From Fundidesulfovibrio terrae (GTDB lineage: Bacteria > Desulfobacterota > Desulfovibrionia > Desulfovibrionales > Desulfovibrionaceae), in contig NZ_JAKZFS010000005.1 in NCBI RefSeq assembly GCF_022808915.1, positions 248,001 through 312,000 on the forward strand: DNA of 64,000 bases, in the 5' to 3' direction. This document shows, in pieces, positions 16,183 through 17,009 of this stretch; within the stretch, counting starts at the first letter, position 1, and each line of letters starts with the position of its first letter. Below the pieces are notes generated by a model. That model had not been told where the DNA came from. It was given only the letters and a program-made list of their open reading frames with translations, and did not search any database. A program made the position numbers and the translations under genes.

Positions 16183-16226
16183 AACGAGAAGGCCGATCCT
16201 GGTCGATCTCGCGAACATGTTCTCAA

Positions 16227-16259
16227 GGGCCCTGGCCGAAACCAGGGCCTTTTGTTTTT
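16227..16259 (+). terminator. Intrinsic terminator after the deoxyribosyltransferase gene
   Basis: GGCCCTGG and CCAGGGCC form a perfect stem around a six-base loop, followed by TTTTGTTTTT. The strong T-tail assigns it to the plus strand. Confidence 0.88.
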
Positions 16260-16340: not shown

Positions 16341-16742
16341 TCAATACCCCAGGTTCTTGCGCACGCACAGGTCGCGCGCGTGGTTGCAGTTGGCGATGCA
16401 CACGGCGCGCTGGTTGGCATCTATATTCGTGTTGCAGGCGTTTGAGCAGCCGGTCCAGACCGTGTTGCAGTTGGCCTGGACATGCCTGGAGCGGTCATGC
16501 TGGGGGTTCTGCCCGCCGCCTGCACGACCCTCGATGACCACGGCCGGCGGAGGGGCTGGCACGTAGTAGCCGGGAGGCGGTGACGGAGCGTAATAAACCG
16601 GCGGTGGAGGCGGTGGCGGGGGCGGCGCATAGACCACGGGTCTGGGTTCATCCAACAGGACGATGCATCCCGTGGCGAGCCACGCCGAGGCCAACAGGAC
16701 GGCGAACATCATGAGAGGCAATCTTCTACGGGCGATACGCAT
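16341..16742 (-). CDS. Lipoprotein with polyproline linker and symmetric six-cysteine C-terminal domain
   Basis: 133 residues. The lipobox LATGC places the lipidated Cys at residue 26. A polyproline/tyrosine stalk (about 39-68, including a run of ten prolines) is followed by a small domain with six cysteines at 92, 99, 103, 115, 119 and 126. The spacing C-x6-C-x3-C-x11-C-x3-C-x6-C is mirror-symmetric, as expected for two helices clipped together by three nested disulfides. A GAGGAA box precedes the ATG. I do not recognise a named family. Outer-membrane or periplasmic-face anchoring is inferred. Confidence 0.8.
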   Translation of the reverse strand: MRIARRRLPLMMFAVLLASAWLATGCIVLLDEPRPVVYAPPPPPPPPPVYYAPSPPPGYYVPAPPPAVVIEGRAGGGQNPQHDRSRHVQANCNTVWTGCSNACNTNIDANQRAVCIANCNHARDLCVRKNLGY

Positions 16743-16830
16743 GTATTCCTCACACGGCAAAGGTGGGCCTCCTGTACGCCAGGTTGCCCACAAAAGCCCG
16801 TGTTGGTCGATTACTTTTTTGACAGAGTGA

Positions 16831-17009
16831 TGGTACGCCGTGATGCTCACGGGCCATGCCGATCTGGAGTCCGTCATGTCGGCGGTGAATCAGGGGCACG
16901 TTTTCCGTTTCCTGACCAAGCCCTGTGCACGCGCGGAGGCGCGCTCATGCTGGCCCAGGGGCTCGAAATGAGCCGCTCCATGATCGAACGCCTGGAGAAT
17001 CTGGCCTAG
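16831..17009 (+). pseudogene. Response-regulator receiver remnant
   Basis: A gene fragment without start or N-terminal half. From 16840 one frame reads VMLTGHADLESVMSAVNQG then VFRFLTKPCA, the unmistakable C-terminal half of a receiver domain (conserved Thr in LTG and Lys in TKP) of the type fused to HD-GYP or similar outputs. A stop codon (16828-16830) lies just before it. After PCA the frame is broken; the neighbouring frame continues as ALMLAQGLEMSRSMIERLENLA and stops at 17009. The 5' part, including the phospho-acceptor Asp, is gone. The rest of the gap between the lipoprotein and cytochrome genes holds nothing else I can support. Confidence 0.75.

Follow-up and report, generated by a model that had tools for sequence, protein, structure and literature searches.

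The DNA analysed here, a 64,000-nucleotide stretch of the Fundidesulfovibrio terrae genome (the window), contains a gene for a small exported protein that ends in a predicted helical hairpin with six cysteines in mirror-symmetric positions. We read this hairpin as an undescribed protein module built on a scaffold of an already known type, and, on sequence grounds, it is best regarded as a reusable unit attached at, or close to, the C-terminus of numerous exported proteins that otherwise differ from one another. So far, within the phylum searched, the module has been seen almost exclusively in a single family of sulfate reducers, the Desulfovibrionaceae. To the whole explanation that we favor, a stalked, exported lipoprotein with a disulfide-stapled hairpin that docks in the cell envelope, we would give a probability of roughly 0.6.

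A lipoprotein with a mirror-symmetric cysteine array

The gene is carried on the minus strand (no strand was given in the original prediction), its stop codon lies at 16341-16343, and translation of the plus-strand frame of 16341-16742 is interrupted by stops. The features of the gene and its product are collected in Table 1. Cysteines appear at residues 26, 92, 99, 103, 115, 119, and 126, the last six within the final 45 of the 133 residues and spaced x6, x3, x11, x3, x6, exactly as had been predicted. The predicted lipobox is also there, located by eye as LATGC (residues 22 to 26) and in agreement with the bacterial lipoprotein pattern, and Cys26 is expected to be lipidated. The stalk that follows had been described as polyproline; its composition is rich in proline and tyrosine. 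Mirror-symmetric spacing arose in 812 of 400,000 random placings of six cysteines in a 62-residue tail (0.2%), a figure that carries less weight than the recurrence of the spacing in other proteins (see below).

Table 1 Coordinates of the features discussed (window positions unless another locus is named)
Feature	Position	Strand	Basis
Whole gene, 133 aa	16341..16742	-	Translation; orthologues L079 and L028/L123
Signal peptide and lipobox, residues 1-26	16665..16742	-	Sequence; helix 9-24 in the full-length model
Pro/Tyr-rich stalk, residues ~33-68	16539..16646	-	Sequence; low pLDDT, no secondary structure
Predicted helical hairpin, residues 80-128 (helices 80-103 and 109-128)	16359..16505	-	AlphaFold2 of the 62-mer (H9-32, H38-57; numbering +71)
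Cys92 (C1), probable partner Cys126	16467..16469	-	Sequence
Cys99 (C2), probable partner Cys119	16446..16448	-	Sequence; C2 and C5 both missing in L030
Cys103 (C3), probable partner Cys115	16434..16436	-	Sequence
Cys115 (C4)	16398..16400	-	Sequence
Cys119 (C5)	16386..16388	-	Sequence
Cys126 (C6)	16365..16367	-	Sequence
GAGGAA, Shine-Dalgarno-like, just 5' of the ATG	16746..16751	-	By eye
DsbA fusion membrane protein	L147:685-1797 (F. terrae C1 ~156.8-157.9 kb)		DsbA match

The closest named match of the protein is its orthologue in F. agrisoli (L079). Comparison of the window gene with two orthologues over the last 57 codons gave dN/dS values of ~0.41 and 0.14, and comparison of these orthologues with each other gave 0.15, with dN below dS. 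An artefact or a chance reading frame is ruled out by the paralogues, the orthologues, and these ratios.

No described family accounted for the protein. The window protein had no Pfam match up to an E value of 10, and in NCBIfam it retrieved just a match to its proline run, at 12 bits against a cutoff of 600. When 34 members of the group were compared, PHROGs gave no match, Pfam gave five families with one or two members each (E values of 0.0011 to 0.086), and NCBIfam gave a single member matching TrbK-alt (E value of 0.0046), none of them convincing. The Pfam family Antimicrobial21 was matched weakly by 2 of 22 members (best E value, 0.00095) and by 2 of 34 (best E value, 0.0011), and by the window protein not at all. 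The module was also absent from the literature surveyed by text search, the coverage of which was partial. The claim that no named family has this spacing is thus borne out for Pfam, NCBIfam, and PHROGs. Binding of heme c by the hairpin domain was ruled out by the absence of CXXCH from it.

Predicted fold

AlphaFold2 modeling of residues 72 to 133, together with four relatives, gave a two-helix hairpin with a mean pLDDT of 92 to 94 over residues 92 to 121 and of 85 over residues 122 to 131, which include Cys126. The structure prediction that had been proposed as a check is thus confident and supports the two antiparallel helices first suggested. In the full-length model, the helices span residues 80 to 106 and 109 to 128 at lower confidence, the mean pLDDT is 57.9, and the stalk is shapeless.

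A Foldseek search with the hairpin model returned only E values above 1. Direct superposition placed the hairpin of walnut Jug r 2 on model residues 21 to 58 at 0.9 Å over 38 residues (Z score of 5.5) and nigellin at 1.8 Å (Z score of 4.8). However, encapsulated ferritins, which are unrelated helical pairs, reached Z scores of 6.0 to 6.1 at 5.3 to 5.4 Å, above the hairpinins, so that the superpositions speak for a shared arrangement and not for kinship. When the family profile was compared with solved structures, Tim13 came first (E value of 0.013), and the top matches also included two vicilin peptides (7uv2 and 7uv4; 0.05 and 0.13) and 2m6a (0.061). The inner four cysteines aligned without gaps with those of Tim13, the vicilin peptides, and 2m6a, all at nonsignificant E values above 0.01.

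Constant arms, a variable loop, and the pairing of the cysteines

Among 110 distinct matched tails, 104 had arms of exactly 6-3 and 3-6, a count favored by the use of profiles built from six-cysteine sequences. The loop between the arms was 11 residues long in 63 of these 104, and 14 (16 tails), 13 (10), 5 (7), 15 (4), 12 (2), or 10 (2) in the others. The pattern of the original prediction therefore needs to be split, its arms being invariant and its x11 loop merely the commonest length. Put in this way, the rule (constant 6-3/3-6 arms, free loop) is usable at once as a family model and would give a name to many hypothetical proteins. By a crude rule, a signal peptide or lipobox was recognized in 101 of the 104 members and a lipobox in 36, and C6 was at most 13 residues from the protein end in 92.

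Four of the 110 tails were judged to be noise (L176, L139, L061, and L062; L139 is perhaps a cut fragment). Apart from such matches, homologues departing from the symmetric cysteines, which would have counted against the prediction, were found only as members missing whole predicted pairs. In L030, Ala and Ser stand at C2 and C5 with the other four cysteines kept, and L037, a weak relative (E value of ~1e-5), contains two copies of a four-cysteine version, both without C1 and C6. These paired losses are what nested pairing predicts, and since one in five random pairs drawn from six cysteines would be nested, the evidence of L030 and L037 alone is modest. Moreover, the number of cysteines in the mature part was even in 94 of the 101 proteins with a recognized signal, and each of the seven odd-count proteins had an extra cysteine in its signal region, so the mature count may be even in all 101. 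Constant arms around a variable loop, paired absences, even counts, and the ungapped alignment of the inner cysteines with CX3C-x11-CX3C hairpins all point the same way, and we consider it very probable that the hairpin is closed by the three nested disulfides originally proposed (92-126, 99-119, and 103-115), the pairing being well accommodated by the data and the bonds themselves inferred from them.

The alternative that the cysteines stay reduced and bind zinc or copper, as they do in zinc fingers and copper storage proteins, seems to us unlikely. It draws on the string CX6CX3C, present in the available portions of plant LBD/LOB papers, and on the small Tims, whose twin CX3C has been called a zinc-finger motif, zinc binding being one model for the reduced form in the part of the source at hand (PMC3759932). 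It would also suit the lack of classical DsbB and VKOR in the F. terrae genome. However, at no arm position does histidine rank with the five most frequent residues, cysteine sets are even and are lost as nested pairs, and disulfide bonds are present in the hairpins whose cysteines line up without gaps with the inner four.

As for the enzymes that could form the bonds, the F. terrae genome had no Pfam match to DsbB or VKOR and a single DsbA domain, located behind a membrane part with two cysteine pairs, CAAFTGGC and CLFC. By eye, this membrane part looks VKOR-like, with no match to the Pfam VKOR family. In a draw of 119 Desulfovibrionaceae genomes, DsbB was found in 4 and VKOR in 2 below the cutoff and none above it, and the DsbA-fusion membrane part was found in 5, 3 of which belong to the 7 genomes of the genus of the window, a distribution that does not follow that of the module. 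Neither DsbB, VKOR, nor the DsbA fusion showed a link to the module across the family. These findings on the oxidizing enzymes somewhat weaken the disulfide claim.

Modular architecture

The same hairpin head follows N-terminal parts that are Pro-rich, Tyr-rich, charged, or made of YYxDxxG repeats. One F. terrae locus (L004) encodes the lipoprotein start typical of the F. agrisoli orthologue without any hairpin (23 of 38 residues identical, E value of 3e-14 in a single comparison), from which it follows that stalk and head are separable.

The repeats deserve a description of their own. Units of the form YYxDxxGxxYYVD precede the hairpin in L006, L007, L041, L042, and others, and those of L006, L007, and L046 had no convincing Pfam match. 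The stalk of the F. agrisoli protein seems to hold a single such unit (YKDKQGQTHYE).

A head that follows very different stalks, and that carries less than 2 bits at most non-cysteine positions of its arms, might be thought a purely structural end cap, shielding the C-terminus from proteases and having no partner. We regard this as rather improbable, given that Asn after C1 (0.51) and Asn or Asp after C5 (0.36 and 0.23) recur, and that an inert cap would hardly need the four to nine copies per genome found within the genus.

Distribution of the module

A first search of the F. terrae genome brought up five further genes with identical spacing and different N-terminal parts, and the final profile (E value of ≤1e-3) matched nine. 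At the same threshold, matches were found in 28 of 288 Desulfovibrionaceae genomes from 7 genera, a count that includes one genome alone in its genus (G618) whose only match, L176, is a short frame judged to be noise. In the 119-genome draw, all 7 genomes of the genus of the window were matched; of the 18 matched genomes in that draw, 2 (G004 and G029) had noise-like frames, and both are absent from the 288-genome result. With a narrower model, 23 of 297 genomes across the order were matched, all in the same family. An early contig scan with one nine-residue pattern yielded 4 loci and is not a measure of spread.

In phylum-wide samples of 395 genomes, each of two models (A2 and A5) matched 4 genomes of the family, and weak matches outside it were found in 3 genomes with A2 and 4 with A5. 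The profile search across Desulfobacterota that had been recommended thus shows a recurrent module, almost only within the Desulfovibrionaceae. Among the matches outside the family, L061, L062, L208, and L209 were noise-like (L063 is the same place as L209), and the single plausible exported protein was L207 (genome G469, minus strand), with the pattern C-x6-C-x4-C-x13-C-x3-C-x6-C, in which one arm differs and Trp precedes C2. This small protein from another family of the phylum could be either a distant relative or a case of convergence.

Searches of plasmids and phages (with the L003 domain as query) and of viral contigs (with A3 as query) gave no match. The idea that the module is mobile-element cargo was rejected on this lack of matches, though one paralogue, L007, adjoins a terminase gene (see below).

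Gene neighborhoods

The window gene is convergent with a nucleoside deoxyribosyltransferase gene, an adjacency kept at the orthologue in G050, and a cytochrome c gene lies upstream; these neighbors give no clue to function. Two other elements were noticed in its surroundings. At 16834-16965 (plus strand), the sequence YAVMLTGHADLESVMSAVNQGHVFRFLTKPC can be read as the C-terminal portion of a receiver domain from a response regulator, with stop codons close behind it, and by eye looks like a gene remnant, and at 16225-16252 (plus strand), there is an intrinsic-terminator-like hairpin after the deoxyribosyltransferase gene (shuffled sequences averaged 1.1 such sites).

The suggested gene-context survey covered 63 members whose loci were 6 kb or longer, with crude gene calls that missed the cytochrome c gene. 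Ten were within three called genes of an SH3_3-like, OmpA, CsbD, LTXXQ, DUF883-like, glycine-zipper, or unnamed "DVDG" exported protein (the SH3_3 and DUF883 matches being below their Pfam cutoffs), and nine had ExbB/TolQ- or ExbD/TolR-type genes no more than three genes away, these nine forming one syntenic subfamily and not nine independent events. The remaining 44, including the window gene, had no flagged neighbor of either kind. The neighborhoods thus suggest an envelope connection in just a subset of the members.

At L041, L042, L109, and L121, small genes of envelope and stress type form an island (OmpA, SH3_3-like, CsbD, LTXXQ, PRC-barrel, LpxR, and glycine zipper), which also carries hairpin subfamilies and the unnamed exported "DVDG" family. 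Elsewhere in F. terrae, the hairpin lipoprotein paralogue L007 (L056, C1:721300-729500) adjoins a terminase and other phage-like genes, possibly at a prophage border.

Possible function

By the sorting rules of Escherichia coli, an Ile after the lipidated cysteine directs a lipoprotein to the outer membrane. We envisage that the window protein would be exported as a lipoprotein with Cys26 lipidated and, with Ile as the next residue, would go to the outer membrane if those rules apply. The Pro/Tyr stalk would then carry the C-terminal hairpin, closed by its nested disulfides, the lipid or stalk would set the place and reach of the head, and the stapled hairpin would act as a rugged binding head that docks on an envelope partner and helps to hold or protect it. 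This last step, a binding head with a role in envelope upkeep or docking, is the tentative part of the scheme, and we place its chances somewhat below even.

A bolder version would make the module a periplasmic counterpart of the small Tims, an expanded set of triply stapled hairpins on lipids or stalks of varied length, which hold clients or join envelope layers and are oxidized mostly without classical DsbB or VKOR; we think this unlikely. A holdase of the periplasm that would bind hydrophobic segments in the manner of the small Tim chaperones strikes us as distinctly unlikely: Tim13 is the top solved match and has the identical inner CX3C-x11-CX3C, Trp or Tyr is the commonest residue four positions after C1 (0.37 and 0.32), and paralogues are many, with one group next to TolQ/R-type genes, but the Tim13 E value is not significant, the arms are polar and rich in Asn and Gln, and the forms seen here are bound to a lipid or a stalk. 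Very improbable is a secreted antimicrobial or inhibitor of the alpha-hairpinin type held at the cell surface, which the fold, the inner spacing, and the weak Antimicrobial21 matches (those to toxin families being weaker still) might suggest, but against which stand the absence from the plasmids, phages, and viral contigs searched, purifying selection, and the lack of a recognized immunity gene among the subset of neighbors scanned.

Comparison with known helical hairpins

The original prediction had likened the hairpin to the twin-CX3C and CHCH proteins. Twin CX9C (CHCH) proteins are helical hairpins with two nested disulfides, and membership in that group was ruled out because the window protein has no CX9C pair; the likeness to twin CX3C, with Tim13 as the top, nonsignificant profile match, stands. 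The plant LOB-domain zinc finger, with the motif CX2CX6CX3C, shares one arm with the module, but it belongs to transcription factors and lacks the mirrored arm, and it was ruled out by the absence of a cysteine three residues before Cys92 and hence of a CX2C preceding the arm. The kappa-hefutoxins with Tk-hefu and neurotoxin B-IV, which also form helical hairpins, came up in the structural comparisons, but they are animal peptides with no significant sequence relation in the profile search, and B-IV differs from the module both in spacing and from the bonding proposed here. Aphid BCR3 peptides (CX3CX6CX21-25CX6CX3C) also have six mirror-symmetric cysteines but in the opposite order, 3-6...6-3, and their bonding is given as unknown in the portion of the source available (PMC9604261).

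The small Tims (Tim8, Tim9, Tim10, Tim12, and Tim13), which are hexameric chaperones, share two helices and the twin CX3C, represented here by C99-x3-C103-x11-C115-x3-C119, and in the part of the source at hand the bonds of Tim9 and Tim10 are nested, C1-C4 and C2-C3 (PMC3759932). However, they have no outer third pair, whereas the window protein has six conserved cysteines plus that of the lipobox, and they act in the mitochondrial intermembrane space, whereas the module is bacterial and bears an export signal.

The alpha-hairpinins, described in the available text as helix-loop-helix peptides with nested CX3C...CX3C disulfides, among them EcAMP1, with four cysteines in nested bonds (PMC7191063), have the fold predicted for the module. 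The window protein fits their four-cysteine core, CX3C-X4-20-CX3C, and the vicilin peptides Pis v 3 and 7uv2 have the same inner C-x3-C-x11-C-x3-C. The plant "6C" hairpinins even have six mirror-placed cysteines, in the form CX3CX3C-X4-20-CX3CX3C according to the excerpt consulted (PMC11591084), against CX6CX3C-Xn-CX3CX6C in the module, where 104 of 110 tails have an outer spacing of 6 instead of 3. Alpha-hairpinins are, moreover, plant peptides cut from precursors, and the module is exported and borne on a lipid or stalk.

We conclude that the alpha-hairpinins, the plant "6C" forms included, are as close to the module as the mitochondrial small Tims, although it is assigned to neither group, and that C1-C6, the outer pair, comes on top of what four-cysteine nested hairpins have. 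To our knowledge, cystine-stapled helical hairpins are otherwise known from mitochondria, plants, and venoms, and the module would be a bacterial instance of a probably cystine-stapled helical hairpin, made in anaerobes and perhaps reached independently.
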